Part shown: positions 2,967-12,901 of the stretch, one piece after another
Layout of the letters: every line of letters begins with the position of its first letter
How positions within the stretch are numbered: position 1 is the first letter of the stretch
Notes under the pieces: model-generated
What the model was told of the DNA's origin: nothing
The model's database searches: none
What the model saw: only the letters and a program-made list of their open reading frames with translations
Position numbers and translations under genes: made by a program
From: Candidatus Hydrogenedentota bacterium
GTDB lineage: Bacteria > Hydrogenedentota > Hydrogenedentia > Hydrogenedentales > JAGMZX01
Direction of reading: 5' to 3'
Length of the DNA stretch: 12,901 nucleotides
NCBI GenBank assembly: GCA_029556545.1
Contig: JAKQEQ010000124.1
Location: 1 to 12,901 of the forward strand

Positions 2967-5570
2967 TTAATCTTCCGAAATCGCCGCCGGTTCCGTCCCG
3001 ATGACGTAACGTATTTCGACCGTCCGGGTTTCGCCCGGCCCCAAGGGCTCTGGCGGCGGCGGCAGTTCCAGTATCACCCGCTGCTGTCTGGGGTCGTATC
3101 GGCACCGAAATTCGTGCTTCCCGTTGCCGTTGAATATGCTCGTTATCCATTGGCCATCGGATGCCTGCACCGCCCAGGCACGGACGCCGTCGAGCGCATG
3201 GGGCCGCGCGTTCCACAGCGGGCCGAGGGGGTTGTCTTCCCCGTCGAGGCGCGTCCAACGGCCATTCCAGTGGGCCTGGAGTCCCGGGGCAAGCAGGGCC
3301 TGCGTCTCGAAGGCGGCGCGCACCCCGGTCGCGGGCGTCACTTCGCGGTCCGTCACGTTCCTGATCTCGAAGACGACGACGAGCGCGTTTTCATTCACGT
3401 CGAGGCGAAAATGGTGATCGAGCGAGAGGCCTTCGCAGGTTGTTGCCCGCAGTAGCGCGCCTTCCGCGTCGCGCGATACGACGTCGCGGGATGTGGCGGC
3501 GGGCGCGCCGGGACCGTCGGCTTGGAACGCCCAGGGTCGCCAAAGGGCGGAATTGGGATCATGTCCGAAGGGGTCGTCCACGAGTTCAAGCGCGGACGCC
3601 TTGTCCCGCCAGCGGACAATCGGGGCTTCGCTTGACGGCGCGACCCAAACGAGCAGGCGATCGTTTTCGAGCGCGATGAGCGGTGTTTCCTCACGGCGCG
3701 GCGGGGTCGCGCCGCCGCATTCGGCTTCGAGGCGAGCAATCAGGGGTTCCGTTTCCGGGCCGAGTTCCGCAAGCCGCGCCGTAAACCGGTCGAGATCCTC
3801 GCAGGGCGGGCGATCTAGCACCAGGGCATCGCCATCCACGGAGACGCGGGGCGGGCAGACCAACGCGGCGTAGGCAAAAGGCAACTGGGCGATCGCGAGA
3901 CGGGCGCGGCGATCGTCGGACTGTGGCGCGGCGAGGGCGTTGTCGAAGCGCGCGTTGATTGCCGCGACCGTGTCGTAATCCAGCCAGGACATGCCCTTGA
4001 AGGGATGGAGGTAGACATTGGCCGCGCGTGCGCGCGCATCGAGCATGGCGAGGGCATCGCGGACGGCCGCGCCGGGCGATCCATAATAACGTGGGATGAA
4101 ATCGTCGCGGGCCTGCTCCCAAGGGAAGTCGGGGTCCCAGAGGGCTCTGGACAGCACGTAGGCGCGCAGGGCGTCGAGTTCGCTGGGCGCTTCGCCGCCC
4201 GGCTGCCGCGCCTGCGTATAGACGCCGCGGGCGCGGCACTGGTCATACAGGAGGAAATTCTCCCTGAAGACGTGGGGGTCCGGGTGCGGTCGGAGGGGAT
4301 TATCCTGATTTGACGCATAATCCCAGACGTACAGGTTGTCCGTGATCGCCGCCCAACCTTTGAGGTCACGAGCGAATGCCGCGTTTACCGGCGACATTGC
4401 GTCGGTCAGCGGGCGCCGCATGTCGCAGCCGTCCGTGCGGAGCCAGACATTCACGTTGGAGCGCGGGCGGAGGCTGGCGGGCGGGCGGCGGCGCGTCCCC
4501 GTGAAGAGCGCTTCGATGCGGTAGTCCTTTTCCGGGGACGCCTGATCGATTGCTTCCGCAACGCGGTTCAGGAGGATGAGGAGCGGTCCCGCGGGGCTGC
4601 CCTCGCGGTCCTGGACGGCGCGGCACAGGGGGCACTCACAGGCGCCGGGCCACGGCGTGGGCGAGAGGGTGATGACGTGCGGTTCGCCATCGGCAAGCAC
4701 GATGTCGCGCAGTGCGCGTTGCGCCGGGTCCAATGCTTCCGGCGCGGCCTCGAGAAGCGGCAGCAGTTTGGCGATGATCGCGTCGGCGACGGCGGGATTC
4801 GCGTAGCAGAGTTGCGTCGCGTCGGCAATCCGCGGTCCGCCTTCCTCGAACAGTTTCACTGTGCGCTTTCCGGCGATCTCGGCGTAATACTCGGGGTGGT
4901 CCTTGAAATGGCGGTCGGGTGGGAGCAGGGCGAAGAGTGCGCCCTCTCCGAGGGCGGCGCGGGGCGGCGGTCCCTCGAGTTTGTGGGCGTGGACATATTC
5001 GTTGGGATCGGCCTTCCAGAAGGGGGTATAGCCGCTGCGGCGCATTTCGAAGGAGGGGCGAAAGGGCAACTCGATTTCGTTGATGACGAATGCCGCGCGG
5101 GACGCGACGGTAGCCGAGGGCGCGAGCCACCGGACGTTGACGAAGCGTTCGAGAAATTCGTGCACGCCGTGCAGCGCGCCAGCGTCGGTCAAGGCCGCGA
5201 TGACAAGCTGTTTGTGCGCTCCCATCATCTTCTCGCGACGCGTTGGCGTGTAGGTGCGGATAAGAAAGCCCTCGGGGCCCAAGGGTTCGAGTTCCTTGTG
5301 TTCCACGAGGTTGACTGCCAGCGCGCTCCTTCCGAGCCACACGTTTATTTTTCCGGTGTTTTCCACGCCGATGGTCAGTTCGTGGCTGGTGGATTCGCGC
5401 CAGTAGCGCTGAAAGACAGATGCGGCCAATTCCTCGCTCTCGGTGGCGTCTGGGGGGATTACGGCGTGGAAATTGCCGAAATCGCCCATGGTCGCCCAGC
5501 CCCGACTGAGCGGCTGTGCAAGGACGGCTTCGGCCAGGGCGACGGCCAGCGCAATAATGGCTCGTGTCAT
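2967..5570 (-). CDS. Exported DUF4838-domain protein, glycosidase-related architecture
   Basis: An 867-residue protein. Residues 1-19 form a signal peptide. Residues about 30-165 resemble the N-terminal domain found beside alpha-glucuronidase-type enzymes, with GPEGFLIRT (98-106) and the pattern leading to FLERFVNVRWLAP (139-151). Residues about 215-500 match DUF4838: HPEYYAEIAGKR, QLCYANP, a CECPLC cysteine cluster (311-316), NVWLRTDGCDMRRPLTD, LYVWDYASN and YVLSRALWDPD. Residues about 640-867 look like a beta-sandwich of the galactose-mutarotase-like type common at the end of glycosidases. The family occurs in polysaccharide-use regions, but its reaction is not established as far as I know, so I infer extracytoplasmic carbohydrate binding or cleavage only. 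The ATG at 5570 follows gggag at 9 bases. It is the first gene of a two-gene operon, with a promoter at 5618-5623. Confidence 0.85.
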   Translation of the reverse strand: MTRAIIALAVALAEAVLAQPLSRGWATMGDFGNFHAVIPPDATESEELAASVFQRYWRESTSHELTIGVENTGKINVWLGRSALAVNLVEHKELEPLGPEGFLIRTYTPTRREKMMGAHKQLVIAALTDAGALHGVHEFLERFVNVRWLAPSATVASRAAFVINEIELPFRPSFEMRRSGYTPFWKADPNEYVHAHKLEGPPPRAALGEGALFALLPPDRHFKDHPEYYAEIAGKRTVKLFEEGGPRIADATQLCYANPAVADAIIAKLLPLLEAAPEALDPAQRALRDIVLADGEPHVITLSPTPWPGACECPLCRAVQDREGSPAGPLLILLNRVAEAIDQASPEKDYRIEALFTGTRRRPPASLRPRSNVNVWLRTDGCDMRRPLTDAMSPVNAAFARDLKGWAAITDNLYVWDYASNQDNPLRPHPDPHVFRENFLLYDQCRARGVYTQARQPGGEAPSELDALRAYVLSRALWDPDFPWEQARDDFIPRYYGSPGAAVRDALAMLDARARAANVYLHPFKGMSWLDYDTVAAINARFDNALAAPQSDDRRARLAIAQLPFAYAALVCPPRVSVDGDALVLDRPPCEDLDRFTARLAELGPETEPLIARLEAECGGATPPRREETPLIALENDRLLVWVAPSSEAPIVRWRDKASALELVDDPFGHDPNSALWRPWAFQADGPGAPAATSRDVVSRDAEGALLRATTCEGLSLDHHFRLDVNENALVVVFEIRNVTDREVTPATGVRAAFETQALLAPGLQAHWNGRWTRLDGEDNPLGPLWNARPHALDGVRAWAVQASDGQWITSIFNGNGKHEFRCRYDPRQQRVILELPPPPEPLGPGETRTVEIRYVIGTEPAAISED

Positions 5571-5891: not shown

Positions 5892-6731
5892 ATGGTCGCC
5901 GCCGTATTACTCGCCGTGCTGGCGGGTGTTGTAAGCGCGAATCCCGTGGTCGAGACCGTGGAGGACTCGAGCATTTCGGCGCGGGTCGCGAGTAAGTTTC
6001 TGATGAACAAGCACCTGAGCCCGCTGAATATCACGACGAGTACGAGCGCGGGGGTGGTCACGTTGAGCGGCAGCGTGCGGGAGGACGCCCAGAAGCAACT
6101 GGCCGAGGAACTGGCCCGGGAAGTTCCGGGCGTGGTGGACGTGCGCAACGAATTGCTGGTGGTGCCCACGGCGTACACGGAACGGCAGAAGCGCGGGTTC
6201 GGTCAGCGTATGCGCGACGCCTCGGTCAGCGCGAACGTGCGGGGCGTGCTACTGCGGGACGGCGAGACCAAGGGGGTCAAGATCGGGGTCGAGACGGTGA
6301 ACGGGGTGGTCACATTGTCTGGGGTGGCGAACAGCGGAGAACAGAAGGCGAAGATTGGGCAGTCGGCGGCGCAGGCGCGGGGCGTGGTTGAAGTGGTCAA
6401 TAATCTGACCGTGCTCGACAGGCCGGCGCTGGGCACATTTCAGAACATCGGGCGGCAATTCAAGGACGAGTGGGTGGAGAAGCGGGTCGAGACGGCGATT
6501 ACGGTAAACCGGCACGTGCGCATCCGTCATCTCGACGTGGAAGTGAATGACGGCGTCTGCGTGTTGTCGGGGAACGTGGACTCGCAGGAAGAGAAGGAGT
6601 TGGCGGGCAGCCTTGCGTCGGCCGTTCCCGGCGTGCGGGAGCTTGTGAACGACATCGCGGTGCGCGACGAGCCCGGGGCCGCGCCTGTTGTGGTTCTCGA
6701 AGGCGTCGACCCCGTCGAGGAACCGCTCTAA
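5892..6731 (+). CDS. Exported protein with three BON domains
   Basis: A 279-residue protein made of three BON (OsmY/secretin-associated) domains at about residues 25-92, 109-175 and 194-258. Each has the domain's signature: a helix, then the strand pattern GVVTLSG (54-60), GVVTLSG (138-144) or GVCVLSG (221-227), a second helix, then VPGV/ARGV and a final strand such as VRNELLV or VVNNLTV. BON domains are thought to bind phospholipid or envelope components, and proteins such as OsmY act in the periplasm under envelope or osmotic stress. The N-terminus (VAAVLLAVLAGVVSA) is a signal peptide lacking the usual positive charge, with cleavage likely near residue 16. The start is well supported by aaggagg with GGAGG at 5881-5885, six bases before the ATG. 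The next gene starts 52 bp downstream on the same strand. A basic linker (98-107) separates the first two domains. Confidence 0.9.
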   Translation: MVAAVLLAVLAGVVSANPVVETVEDSSISARVASKFLMNKHLSPLNITTSTSAGVVTLSGSVREDAQKQLAEELAREVPGVVDVRNELLVVPTAYTERQKRGFGQRMRDASVSANVRGVLLRDGETKGVKIGVETVNGVVTLSGVANSGEQKAKIGQSAAQARGVVEVVNNLTVLDRPALGTFQNIGRQFKDEWVEKRVETAITVNRHVRIRHLDVEVNDGVCVLSGNVDSQEEKELAGSLASAVPGVRELVNDIAVRDEPGAAPVVVLEGVDPVEEPL

Positions 6732-8185: not shown

Positions 8186-10627
8186 ATGCGAGTCGTCGCC
8201 GTGTCAGTTTTCCTAACGCTGCAACTTTTCACCGCAAATCCTGCCGCGTTTGGGGCCGAGTCGGCGCCAATTGTGCGGCGGGGTCATTTCGAGGAGATTA
8301 CGGATTGCGCCAGCGGGAACTACGTGATCGAGTCGTTCCGCATGAGCGCCGATGGAACGCGGGCGGTATTCTACGTGCGCCAGACCGTCCAGGATGCCCG
8401 GGGGTGTTTCTCGTATCAGCTGCGCGTAATCGACACGGACGGCGGCAATGAGACAGTGGTCGAGCAGGGTTTCACGTACGACACAGGCGTGGGCAACTTC
8501 TGTGCGAACGGGCTTTACGATGCCTACGACATCTCGGACGACGGCGGCACGATTGCCTACTTGCGCCTGCGCAGTCCGGCCGACCTTGCGCTGGAGATAA
8601 TGGTGTATGACGTGGCCACGGCGGGAAAAACGAGCGTGCTTCAGACGTTGCCCCACCGTTCTTATGGCGAGACCCACCAGGTGGATATTGACGCGTATGG
8701 CGGGCGGCCGGGCTTTGCCATGACGGGCGACGGCGCGCAGGTGTTCTTCATCAATGGTTTCGGCCCCTACGGGAGTCCCGGCAGTTCGGGGGAGCCCGAG
8801 GCATCGGGGTTGACGGTATACCGGGTTTTCACCGATGGTTCGGGGGCCGAGGCGGTCTACACGAGCGCGGATCTCGCGACGACGCCGGGTGTGGCCGAAT
8901 CGGCCATATACGTCGTGGCCGCCGGCGGTTGGCTTGCGGTTGACAAGACCGGTTCATTGCTTCTCCTGCCCGTGGGCGGGAATTTCCCGAGCGCGAACCC
9001 GCCCAAACACATCCTGAAGATCGACCCGAACGTCGGCGCGGCTAGCGCCGAGGTCTTTTTGGATTTCATCGGGCTAGGTCTCAGCGGCCCTTCGCTGTCC
9101 GGTGACGGGACCACGGCGGTCTTCGCGCGATCCGGCAGCGCGGACCCGGCGCTGAACGGACTGTTCGCCCGCGGCACGGGCGCGGATGATCCCGAAGTGT
9201 TGCTCGATGCGAAGCTCCGCTGGGCGACCAAGCCGGCGATCAGCGACGACGGCGCGGCAGTTGTCCATAACGTGGACTTGGGCGGCGGCAGCAGCCCGGC
9301 CCTGCGGTACGCCACGACGGACGGCATGTTGCTCGTGCCGCTGACGGAACCGATAGTCTTCGTGCGGTTTGACTACGGCGCAATTAGCGAGAACGGGGGC
9401 CGGGTGGTGTTCTGCGGCGAGGTAAAGGGAGCTACGGCGTTCGAACCGCTCACGAACTACAACCTCGTCCGCATGGACTGGGGCTCGGATGCGGATCCGC
9501 GGATTGACGGTATCGACGCGGAGCCCGAGCTGACGTTGCTGCGCACCACATTCACGGATTATGACCCGCCGCGCAACACGCACTTTTATACAGTCAGCGG
9601 AACGGCGTTGGCGGGCATGTACACCTATCCGTTCAACAATGACGCCAGCGTGCCGGGGGGCACCAGCCGTTTTCACGTCAACGGCGGCATTTTGGATGAC
9701 GGCGTATACCGCGGCGACGCCGTGGCGGGAGACGGCATTTTCACGGAGAACAGCTTATTTGTCACGAGCGAGGAAGTGGAGGCGCCACTGAAATTGCGCG
9801 CGGGCGTGACGACCACGGCGGGCAGGGCAAGCTTCGTCGATACCGTGATTCCGCTGCGGAACAAGGTGCTCGCGATTGCCGATTTCTCGGCAAGCCCCGT
9901 GATCGGCGTTGCACCGTTCGAAGTCACCTTCCAGGACCTCTCGACCGGCGACTATCTTGAAACTGCCTGGGACTTCCAGGGCAACTACAGCTTCGATCTG
10001 ACGGGAACACGCGGCGAGACGGTAACCTTCACGTACGCGACGGCGGGCAGCTACACGCCGTGGCTCGAAGTGAGCGGCCGGGGAAGCACCAACGAGGCGC
10101 GCAATGTCGTCACTATCCGGGTCTTCGCCACCCTTGGCAGCATGGCCCGAACCTTGGCGGACGGGCTAGCCACCGCCGACGTCGACGGATCGGGAACGCT
10201 TGATCTTGACGAGGCGGTAATCATCGTGCCCGGACTCGATCAAACGCTCTTCGACGAATGGGACACGGACCAGGACGGCGCGCTCAGTCGGCGCGAGCTG
10301 CTTGTCGGCGCGGGCGGCGAGGGCGTCGTACATACGGGCGATCAAGACGCCGATCTGCGTATCCAGCTTTCGGAATTGCTGCGCTTGATTCAGTTCTTCA
10401 ACTCCGGCGGCTTCCATTGCGCCGAGCCGCCCGACGCGACGGAAGACGGCTATGCGCCCGGCCCCGGCGATCAGTCTTGCGATCCGCACCGGAGCGACTA
10501 CGAACCGCAAGACTGGGCGGTCCAACTTCTCGAACTGCTGCGTCTAATCCAGTTCTACAACATCGGAGGCTACACGCCCTGCCCTGATGCCGGCACGGAG
10601 GACGGCTTTTGTCCCGGTCTGGGGTAA
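8186..10627 (+). CDS. Secreted multidomain protein: propeller-like, PKD, EF-hands, duplicated C-terminal module
   Basis: An 813-residue protein. Residues 1-24 are a signal peptide (…AAFGA). Residues about 45-430 carry repeated blade motifs such as FRMSADGTRAVFY, YDISDDGGTIAYL, FAMTGDGAQVFF, PSLSGDGTTAVFA and PAISDDGAAVVHN, typical of TolB-like beta-propellers. Residues about 449-560 form a beta domain with DDGVYRGDAVAGDGIFT. Residues 566-646 are PKD-like (ASPVIGVAPFEVTFQDLSTG…WDFQG). Two EF-hand-type calcium loops follow: DVDGSGTLDLDE (665-676) and DTDQDGALSRRE (693-704). Residues 719-761 and about 771-813 are a tandem duplicate: a ELLRLIQF helix, NxGG(F/Y), a Cys, then TEDG(Y/F). Cys 745, 765, 799 and 809 may pair. 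It is probably a surface or secreted binding protein; no catalytic site is visible. The start is supported by ggggag (8173-8178), 7 bases upstream. Confidence 0.85.
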   Translation: MRVVAVSVFLTLQLFTANPAAFGAESAPIVRRGHFEEITDCASGNYVIESFRMSADGTRAVFYVRQTVQDARGCFSYQLRVIDTDGGNETVVEQGFTYDTGVGNFCANGLYDAYDISDDGGTIAYLRLRSPADLALEIMVYDVATAGKTSVLQTLPHRSYGETHQVDIDAYGGRPGFAMTGDGAQVFFINGFGPYGSPGSSGEPEASGLTVYRVFTDGSGAEAVYTSADLATTPGVAESAIYVVAAGGWLAVDKTGSLLLLPVGGNFPSANPPKHILKIDPNVGAASAEVFLDFIGLGLSGPSLSGDGTTAVFARSGSADPALNGLFARGTGADDPEVLLDAKLRWATKPAISDDGAAVVHNVDLGGGSSPALRYATTDGMLLVPLTEPIVFVRFDYGAISENGGRVVFCGEVKGATAFEPLTNYNLVRMDWGSDADPRIDGIDAEPELTLLRTTFTDYDPPRNTHFYTVSGTALAGMYTYPFNNDASVPGGTSRFHVNGGILDDGVYRGDAVAGDGIFTENSLFVTSEEVEAPLKLRAGVTTTAGRASFVDTVIPLRNKVLAIADFSASPVIGVAPFEVTFQDLSTGDYLETAWDFQGNYSFDLTGTRGETVTFTYATAGSYTPWLEVSGRGSTNEARNVVTIRVFATLGSMARTLADGLATADVDGSGTLDLDEAVIIVPGLDQTLFDEWDTDQDGALSRRELLVGAGGEGVVHTGDQDADLRIQLSELLRLIQFFNSGGFHCAEPPDATEDGYAPGPGDQSCDPHRSDYEPQDWAVQLLELLRLIQFYNIGGYTPCPDAGTEDGFCPGLG

Positions 10628-10731: not shown

Positions 10732-12901
10732 ATGTGGAAGCGGCTGATGCTGGTTTTCCTCTGTGGTGCGATGGGCGTGGGTGCGTGGGCGAGTGTGGTG
10801 GCGCCGGCCGAGGTGTCGCTGACCCAACCCGACGGCACGAGCTATCCAGCCCGACCCCGCGGCGATGAATACGGGGACTGGGTGGAGACGCTGGACGGCT
10901 ACACGGTTGTCCAGTCGGCTTCCAGTGTCTGGGTGTACGCCGTGGAAGGCCCTGACGGGAGCCTGGCCGCGTCGTCGCACGCGGTGGGCAGCCTCTCGCC
11001 CGATGCCTTGGGCCGACTTGCCCGACATCTCCGCCCGCCTGCCGACCCGGCGGTGCGCGAGCTTCGAGTTCCGCGACGGTTGCCTCGATCGGACGGCAAG
11101 GCGATCGTCCATTCTCAGCCGCTTCTGACCATCCTGGTCTCATTCACCGACACTAGCTTCCTGTATTCCGCCTCCAGTTTCCAGAGTTTGGTTTATGGCG
11201 CCGCCGGCAGTGTGAAAGCGTTCTACCTCGAAAACTCCTACGGCAATTTCACCATTGTGCCCGCGACCGAGAGTGAGGGCGTGGCGAACGACGGCGTCGT
11301 GGCTGTCAACGTGGGATACGTCCATCCCGATTTCGGCAACAATTGGGGCCCGGCGACGTATCAACTGGTTGCCGACGCCATTGCCGCAGCGGACCCGTAT
11401 GTCAATTACGCGGCCTATGACGCCGACACAAACGGCGCGGTGCACGAGCACGAACTCTCGATCCTGTTGCTTGTCGCCGGCTACGAGAAAGGCTACCGGG
11501 GCGCGTTGTCCAAGACGCCCAACGTGTGGGCTCACAAGTACTTCATCACGCCGGTAACGCATGACGGCGTTACGCTTTCGCCCTATGCCATGGCGGGTGA
11601 ACGGCACGGCGAGACTGGTTATCCGGACCATCAGTCGACCATCGGCGTACCCGCGCATGAACTGGGGCATCTGATGCTGGGACTTCCCGACCTCTACGAT
11701 ACCGACGGGAGTTCGGAAGGGATCGGCGAGTGGGGCGCCATGTCATCCGGGAACTGGAACTACACGGGGACCTACCAGGGAGACTGCCCCGCCCATTTTT
11801 CCGCGTGGTGCAAGGTCACGGTCGGCATGGTGGACCCGGTGGACGTGGACACGTCGGCGACGGGCGTACTGGTCCAGCCAACAAGCAGCCAAGCCTCGGT
11901 GAAGAGGCTCTGGATCGACCCTTATCGGTATCCGAAGGGGGAATACTTTCTGGTCGAGAACCGGCAGTTGTCCGGCTATGACGGCGGGCTTCCCGGGGCC
12001 GGTCTGTTAATCTGGCACATCGATCCGGCCGTATCGAACAATACGAACGAAGCCCACAAGTTGGTGGACCTGGAAGAGGCCGACGGCTTGAATGACCTGG
12101 ATTCCCTGACAAACCGGGGAGATACCGGCGACCCCTATCCCGGGAGCACGGCAAACACTACGTTTGACGATTCGAGTACGCCCGACTCGACAGATTACGG
12201 CGGCAACAGCACCGGTATCGTGGTGACCAACGTTTCCACCGCGTCCCTTCCGGCAATCACGGCGGATTTCACGCCGCGCACCGGCGGCGTCGGTGATTGG
12301 ATCGGCTACGACGAGAACGGCGTCACGCACGGCTTGGGGTACGGCCAGCCGACGGCGTGGACCGCACTTCGGGTCACGAACACGACGACCATGAACACGC
12401 TGGACGGATTCCAGGTATATGTCAACGATGTCTCCGCCTCGATAGACTTCGCGCTGTACGATAGTATTCCCGGCGGCAACCTGGGAACGCTCCTTCATTC
12501 GGAATCCGGATTTGCCGCTGTCGCAGGTTGGAACCGGTTCCTGCTCGCGGCGCCACAGTCGTTTCCGCAGGCCGGGGATCGGGTGATAGTGCTCAAGATC
12601 GCCAACAACAGTTGGGGATGGCCCGCGGCTTATGACGGCACAGGCACGCCGTCGGGACGTTGCTATATCAGCAATACCGGTACCGGTACGTTCTTTGATA
12701 TGAGCGGCTTCGGCGATCTGAATCAGCATGCCTTGCTGAGTCTTGGGGGAAGCGAGGGCGAAGGCGAGGGCGAAGGCGAGGGCGAGGGCGAGGGGGAAGG
12801 CGAGGGCGAGGGCGAGGGCGAAGGGGAGGGAGAGGGTGAGGGCGAAGGGGAAGGCGAGGGCGAGGGCGAAGGTGAGGGCGAAGGTGAAGGCGAAGGTGAA
12901 G
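10732..12901 (+). CDS. M6-family secreted metalloprotease, 3' end cut by window
   Basis: At least 723 residues, with no stop before the edge. Residues 1-20 are a signal peptide ending AWA. Residues 21 to about 115 are an M6-type leader (LTQPDG…GDEYGDWVETLDGYTVV). The catalytic region spans about 120-515. It has HELGH at 309-313 (two zinc-binding His and the catalytic Glu310), Asp320 in GLPDLYD as the likely third ligand, and a Met-turn around Met337 (WGAMSSGNW). Further on are YFLVENRQ and GLLIWHID, common in M6 (immune inhibitor A-like) peptidases. Residues about 520-673 form an extra, probably beta-sandwich, domain. From 675 the chain is strict Glu-Gly alternation to the edge. It should be a secreted, zinc-dependent protein-degrading enzyme. 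AAGGA precedes the ATG by 7 bases. It lies 104 bp after the preceding gene with no clear terminator between, so co-transcription is possible. Confidence 0.9.
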   Translation, partial: MWKRLMLVFLCGAMGVGAWASVVAPAEVSLTQPDGTSYPARPRGDEYGDWVETLDGYTVVQSASSVWVYAVEGPDGSLAASSHAVGSLSPDALGRLARHLRPPADPAVRELRVPRRLPRSDGKAIVHSQPLLTILVSFTDTSFLYSASSFQSLVYGAAGSVKAFYLENSYGNFTIVPATESEGVANDGVVAVNVGYVHPDFGNNWGPATYQLVADAIAAADPYVNYAAYDADTNGAVHEHELSILLLVAGYEKGYRGALSKTPNVWAHKYFITPVTHDGVTLSPYAMAGERHGETGYPDHQSTIGVPAHELGHLMLGLPDLYDTDGSSEGIGEWGAMSSGNWNYTGTYQGDCPAHFSAWCKVTVGMVDPVDVDTSATGVLVQPTSSQASVKRLWIDPYRYPKGEYFLVENRQLSGYDGGLPGAGLLIWHIDPAVSNNTNEAHKLVDLEEADGLNDLDSLTNRGDTGDPYPGSTANTTFDDSSTPDSTDYGGNSTGIVVTNVSTASLPAITADFTPRTGGVGDWIGYDENGVTHGLGYGQPTAWTALRVTNTTTMNTLDGFQVYVNDVSASIDFALYDSIPGGNLGTLLHSESGFAAVAGWNRFLLAAPQSFPQAGDRVIVLKIANNSWGWPAAYDGTGTPSGRCYISNTGTGTFFDMSGFGDLNQHALLSLGGSEGEGEGEGEGEGEGEGEGEGEGEGEGEGEGEGEGEGEGEGEGEGEGEGE
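12754..12901 (+). repeat. Hexanucleotide repeat encoding (Glu-Gly)n
   Basis: A run of 49 alternating Glu and Gly codons continues past the window. The unit is GAR-GGN with GGC preferred, mixed with GGG, GGT and GGA, so the DNA is imperfect while the protein pattern is perfect. Each unit is 6 bp, so gain or loss of units keeps frame. In this lineage such linkers sit between a catalytic part and a C-terminal module. Confidence 0.9.

Follow-up and report, generated by a model that had tools for sequence, protein, structure and literature searches.

The carrier gene and its surroundings

The window, by which we mean the whole stretch of 12,901 nucleotides analysed here, is the entire contig C144 of a source genome of 6.1 Mb in 195 contigs. 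On its forward strand, on which all features described below lie, the open reading frame at 8186..10627 translates into a protein of 813 residues, which begins with a signal peptide-like start (residues 1-23, 8186..8254, MRVVAVSVFLTLQLFTANPAAFGA, by direct reading and a simple rule), continues according to Pfam with weakly matched propeller repeats (PD40), a PKD domain (residues 567-638) and an EF-hand match (residues 688-706), and ends in the C-terminal module that concerns us here. A re-reading of the translation agrees in frame, in coordinates and in the presence of two module copies with the first-pass annotation, which had been made from the sequence alone, and the ordinary EF-hand loops that it placed directly before the module are real, as judged from the Pfam match upstream of it.

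The next gene (10732-12900) has an M6 metalloprotease domain (NCBIfam TIGR03296, 173 bits) and leaves the window within a long (GE)n linker at the contig end. Pfam PF22807 (TrAA12-like) scores on such linkers, both here (12740-12900) and in L061, L069, L085 and others, and these scores look like a composition artefact which could mislead automatic annotation. By eye, the frame at 2967-5570 resembles a large secreted glycosidase and that at 5892-6731 a BON-domain repeat protein, and neither gives any sign, again by eye, of belonging to the docking system discussed below.

Sequence and predicted structure of the module

The module measures about 100 residues (716-811 in the window protein) and consists of two halves of about 45 residues each. 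Copy one, residues 716-761 (10331..10468), was delimited by alignment A1 and the own-genome profile, and copy two, residues 768-811 (10487..10618), by the same alignment and by the profile match between the halves, which over 88 members reaches a probability of 99.8% with an E-value of 6e-30. In the window protein itself the two copies score 102 when aligned with BLOSUM62, compared with 50 for the highest-scoring of 5000 shuffles. Each unit runs in the order H-x-x-D, acidic loop, helix ELLRxIQF(Y/F)N, G-G-aromatic turn, Cys and TEDG(Y/F)xPG. The first-pass annotation had set the units at 719-761 and 771-813; the duplication itself holds, but the unit starts three residues earlier, with an H-x-x-D that is conserved in both copies.

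The loop of copy one, D719-E730 (12 residues, 10340..10375), is of exact EF type in the window protein, D719-x-D721-x-D723-x-x-I726-x-L728-x-E730, and conforms to the family pattern D-x-(N/D/S)-x-(D/N)-x-x-I-x-L-x-E, in which the first Asp (position 1) and the last Glu (position 12) are found in 88/88 copies. The loop of copy two, D771-E783 (13 residues, 10496..10534), exceeds a standard EF loop by one residue and belongs to the family pattern H-x-S-D-Y-x-P-x-D-W-x-I-x-L-x-E, D771 being the family Asp (88/88) and E783 the family Glu (86/88). The idea that copy two lacks most of its acidic loop and may have diverged in role, raised when the sequence was first read, is not borne out, since a 13-residue loop with these two residues is the norm among the 88 copies. 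The helices follow at residues 728-739 (ELLRLIQFFN region, 10367..10402; helix 19-30 of the AF2 model) and 781-793 (ELLRLIQFYN region, 10526..10564; helix 72-84 of the model), and R, Q and N are near-invariant in both. Cys745 and Cys765 (first and last codons 10418..10480) are both present in 86/88 copies and both absent from 2, no copy having a single one, while Cys799 and Cys809 (10580..10612) are both present in 72/88 copies, both absent from 15 and found singly in 1. That the cysteines of each pair are kept or lost together implies two disulfides, 745-765 and 799-809, which probably lock the halves of the module.

Searched alone (96 residues), the module retrieves no Pfam family at E<=1, and hence neither Dockerin_1 nor EF-hand, and an NCBIfam search with the same residues likewise returned no family. 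Loop one fits the 12-residue EF pattern (PF00036) exactly and single module loops match calmodulin-like chains weakly, whereas the model has loop-helix units rather than the helix-loop-helix of the EF-hand, with a long disulfide-bearing tail after each helix. This model, obtained with AF2 from an 88-row alignment (pLDDT 93.2, pTM 0.84), consists of two loop-helix units and small hairpins. In a Foldseek search of it against the PDB, 20 of the 23 matches were cellulosomal cohesin-dockerin structures, but with E-values of at least 2.1, and with VIA-align all matches listed were dockerins, with Z up to 4.1 over 60 residues, a value that may reflect a common structural arrangement; no notable non-dockerin domain family was found among the matches listed. 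The likeness to a dockerin half or an EF-hand that had been proposed from the letters alone is therefore upheld as regards the two loop-helix units and the dockerins as best matches, but at these scores the resemblance is a weak one, and the fold likeness of the modelled module to dockerins may be called suggestive.

Against 41 local dockerins the module profile gives a weak match (30.7% for the whole, 73.7% for the best pair of halves) that could reflect any EF-type loop, and since these values are too weak we do not claim dockerin homology by profile. Likewise set aside as a lead to the identity of the module was its sequence profile against the PDB, which gave mostly short EF-loop matches (best E 0.009, a dynein light chain). 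Divergent modules with altered loops, or cysteine-free ones, occur in long repeat-rich or carrier proteins (L089 on G000 C71, L340 and L344-L347), and some of them belong to families f2-f4, which have only one or two copies.

Module-bearing proteins of the source genome

The census in the source genome, which was built from search matches and fetched surrounding stretches rather than from a whole-genome scan, comprises 112 module matches in about 101 open frames. Among the 91 frames with a visible stop, the module ends 1-3 residues before it in 73 and within 13 residues in 87. A signal-peptide-like start, called by a simple rule and not by a trained predictor, is found in 64 of 70 complete C-terminal carriers compared with 8 of 70 internal control stretches. 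Flexible GE linkers lie between the module and most carrier bodies, and Pfam identifies among 20 representative bodies papain-type, M14 and S15 peptidases, CHRD, LVIVD repeats, InlB-type repeats, Lcl_C and P-domains. The first-pass annotation had envisaged a terminal, duplicated loop-helix module on many unrelated exported proteins, or else one confined to orthologues of the window protein, and genome searches favor the former, 64 carrier bodies falling into 34 sequence clusters (50% coverage). About 100 mostly unrelated, predicted secreted proteins of one uncultured Hydrogenedentota bacterium thus share an unnamed module. Many module copies and (GE)n linkers lie within about 500 bases of contig ends (C9, C34, C100, C124, C133, C191 and others), and since these repeats probably break the assembly, the true number of modules may be higher.

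That most carriers have the module at the extreme C-terminus, and that a genome has about 100 of them, is also what one sees for type IX secretion substrates, and the module could be imagined to be a sorting or secretion signal for an outer-membrane export machine, perhaps a cleaved one. This notion is very improbable. About a dozen carriers have the module elsewhere, at least nine directly after the signal peptide and four mid-protein, which speaks for a folded domain that can be placed anywhere in a protein rather than for a C-terminal sorting signal that is cleaved off. Furthermore, no SprA_N match over the cut-off was found in 20 genomes, although the control is uninformative here, since the control genomes likewise gave none, and the module is a conserved fold with probable disulfide pairs that is itself fused to cohesins. 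As a type IX secretion C-terminal domain proper it was rejected on account of the N-terminal and internal copies and the SprA_N result.

Distribution in the phylum

The public genomes encoding the module are all Candidatus Hydrogenedentota where the record names a lineage, and among 68 examined genomes of the phylum 41 have it, in agreement with the first-pass annotation, which had pointed to similar C-termini in proteins of Hydrogenedentes-like genomes. It is absent from 24 of 26 genomes of family f4, and its number elsewhere ranges from 1-6 per genome, in family f10 and most f11 genomes, to more than 70, in f1 and some f9 genomes. In the literature searched we found no description of it. The recurrent carriers in genomes with 1-6 modules are a small cohesin-module protein and a GSNGYITF-type protein of about 850 residues. 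The latter, a conserved protein of about 830-880 residues with the module at its C-terminus, is present in most low-copy f10 and f11 genomes (L330, L331, L332, L333, L337, L339, L342, L343, L350, L354); its body is presumably NIDO-like, to judge from the motif, and the protein is possibly the oldest client.

Fusions to cohesins and the cohesin-dockerin operon

Cohesins (PF00963) are found in 50 of 60 relatives, the source genome included, and genomes that lack the module have them too, possibly with ordinary dockerins as partners. Their number does not rise with that of the module, the source genome having 7 cohesin matches for its approximately 100 modules, and genomes with three modules about five. 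Cohesin and module are nevertheless joined in one chain in 25 of the 40 genomes tallied, amounting to 31 fusions where random placement of modules and cohesins among genes would give 0.84, a comparison to be read with the reservation that the fusions are not independent events, since the genomes are related. Two distinct layouts occur, a small cohesin-module protein of about 255 residues in 24 genomes and a module-cohesin protein of about 900 residues in one further genome.

In the source genome, contig C33 encodes a fusion of the first kind, 254 residues long and made up of signal peptide, cohesin and module, in an operon where ordinary-dockerin genes precede the cohesin-module gene and two cohesin genes follow it, the products of the last two having a C-terminal hydrophobic stretch with basic residues. 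This layout recurs in genomes of f1, f9, f6 and f11. The cohesin half of the fusion scores 31.9 bits in Pfam (PF00963, cut-off 24.1), and its confident model matches known cohesins with a Foldseek E of 6e-12 and TM 0.81-0.84, whereas an AF2 model of the whole protein from a 10-row alignment is uninformative on docking, since its module part is not confident. Small ordinary-dockerin proteins of about 160-200 residues with a shared conserved tail, LT(P/S)(N/H)APP, adjoin the cohesin operon (L151:15823-16359, L174:4066-4545, L166:1991-2449, L167:11333-11938).

This company with cohesin domains, by fusion and in operons, is the strongest clue to the function of the module and lends strong circumstantial support to the docking role suggested in the first-pass annotation. 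Where a cohesin and a docking module share a chain, however, they normally bind different partners, as in scaffoldins, and fusion does therefore not prove that the module binds cohesin. No multi-cohesin scaffoldin was found in the genomes examined.

The modules come in two cysteine subtypes. Of the 76 C-terminal client modules in the source genome, 70 have four cysteines, while all cohesin-fused C-terminal modules lack the second pair; this count covers 21 distinct genes from many genomes (28 rows with seven duplicates) and is confounded as a cross-genome comparison, since low-copy genomes carry mainly two-cysteine modules. Within the source genome only, the difference between 2 cohesin-fused and 76 client modules has a P of 0.009. 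In cellulosomes the scaffoldin's own dockerin differs from the enzyme dockerins and serves attachment (PMC12484212), a distinction that the two subtypes recall by analogy.

Exchange with ordinary dockerins

G044 has no module and 20 ordinary dockerins, and its counterpart operon has, in the same arrangement, a 239-residue protein of cohesin and ordinary dockerin. In a quick tree this cohesin groups with those of two f9 cohesin-module proteins, with moderate support (SH-aLRT 81). In addition, 8 of 24 ordinary-dockerin proteins from G018, G033 and G044 share bodies (at least 200 residues at E<=1e-20) with module proteins of the source genome, and in the dockerin-rich f4 genomes the dockerin mostly ends 1-4 residues before the stop, like the module in the source genome. 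In protein and gene architecture the module thus takes the place of a dockerin, and it is chiefly on this ground that we regard it as a docking domain. The idea that genomes rich in the module and genomes rich in dockerins exclude each other was considered as proof of replacement and abandoned: no module-rich genome is dockerin-rich, but this is not significant (P 0.28, Spearman +0.15) and serves us only as a lead.

A purely structural function, in which the module would be a calcium-binding cap that stabilizes the ends of extracellular proteins and has no partner, agrees with the EF-type loops, the disulfides and the position at the end of proteins, as well as with the ordinary EF-hands that the module follows in the window protein. 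We regard it as very improbable, since the conservation of R, Q and N in the helices exceeds the needs of a cap, since flexible GE linkers set the module apart from most bodies, and since neither repeated fusion to cohesins nor exchange with dockerins is in agreement with such a function.

The main alternative to cohesin docking is a dockerin-like surface anchor whose receptor is something other than a cohesin, such as a surface glycan or a different protein of the outer surface; the cohesin-module proteins would then be cohesins displayed by the same anchor. The usual difference in partner between a cohesin and a docking domain of one chain speaks for such an anchor, as does the flat number of cohesins against that of modules, and as does the presence of the module, in low-copy genomes, on the presumably NIDO-like protein as well. 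It is made rather unlikely by the facts that an ordinary dockerin replaces the module in the same operon in G044, that the tag on homologous bodies is either a dockerin or the module, depending on the family, and that hypothesis-led searches found no other receptor candidate.

Proposed function and relation to known systems

We consider it probable, at roughly 60%, that the module is a docking domain of dockerin type, though a divergent one, and serves a non-cellulosomal system with peptidases and adhesin-like proteins as clients and cohesin-module proteins as adaptors. Export would come first, whereupon the two metal loops and two disulfides would fold, each half having a calcium-loop-like turn, for which calcium binding is suggested by the ligand pattern, followed by the helix ELLRxIQFYN. 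The exported module would then plug into a cohesin domain. Likely receptors would be the putatively membrane-anchored cohesins of the operon or, as a second tier, the small cohesin-module adaptors, which may act as adaptor scaffoldins, receiving one partner on their cohesin and docking through their module to another tier. In this scheme about 100 extracellular proteins, the window protein and various peptidases and adhesin-like proteins among them, would be retained on or close to the cell surface. A bolder version, for which we would give somewhat less than even odds, is that the module represents a new class of cohesin-docking domain whose relation to known dockerins is remote at best. It would have replaced the dockerin as tag in several families of the phylum and would build a two-tier, disulfide-stabilized, non-cellulosomal assembly at the surface, in which the clients, peptidases and adhesin-like proteins, have four-cysteine modules and the cohesin-bearing adaptors two-cysteine ones.

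With type I dockerins (PF00404) the module shares a tandem loop-helix pair whose ligands are Asp/Asn, with Glu/Asp at position 12 of the loop, a C-terminal position on secreted proteins of many unrelated kinds, presence in genomes that also encode cohesins, the same place in the operon, homologous bodies and a weak structural resemblance. It differs from them in its length (about 100 residues against about 60), its 13-residue second loop, its two probable disulfides, its H-x-x-D and TEDG motifs, its failure to match Pfam, and its helix, ELLRxIQFYN in place of DVQLVINAALG. The cohesin-module protein of about 255 residues resembles adaptor scaffoldins such as ScaH of Ruminococcus flavefaciens (reviewed in PMC12484212) in being small and secreted and in combining a cohesin with a docking domain, but its docking domain is the new module, and the clients are peptidases, propellers and repeat proteins rather than cellulases. 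ANME archaea have non-cellulosomal cohesin and dockerin proteins with dockerin domains of the known, annotated kind (PMC9012536); they too are an uncultured, non-cellulolytic lineage with many secreted docking-domain proteins, whereas the Hydrogenedentota module lies outside the family libraries searched (Pfam and NCBIfam). Compared with known non-cellulosomal cohesin-dockerin systems, the novelty lies in the module itself, in its scale and in its clients.

If the proposed docking function is correct, a phylum known mainly from metagenome-assembled genomes organizes much of its secretome by a cellulosome-like plug and socket, with a plug unnamed in Pfam and NCBIfam and with clients that include peptidases and adhesin-like proteins, and about 100 proteins of the source genome acquire a location and a partner that can be tested. 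As a building block, a docking pair locked by disulfides could furthermore be of use, and natural relatives that differ by having dockerin or module offer a direct test of exchange. Family f4 presents a parallel, non-cellulosomal expansion of dockerins: several of its genomes (G018, G033, G039, G044, G050 and G058) encode 10-64 ordinary dockerins, most of them at the very C-terminal end, and few cohesins.
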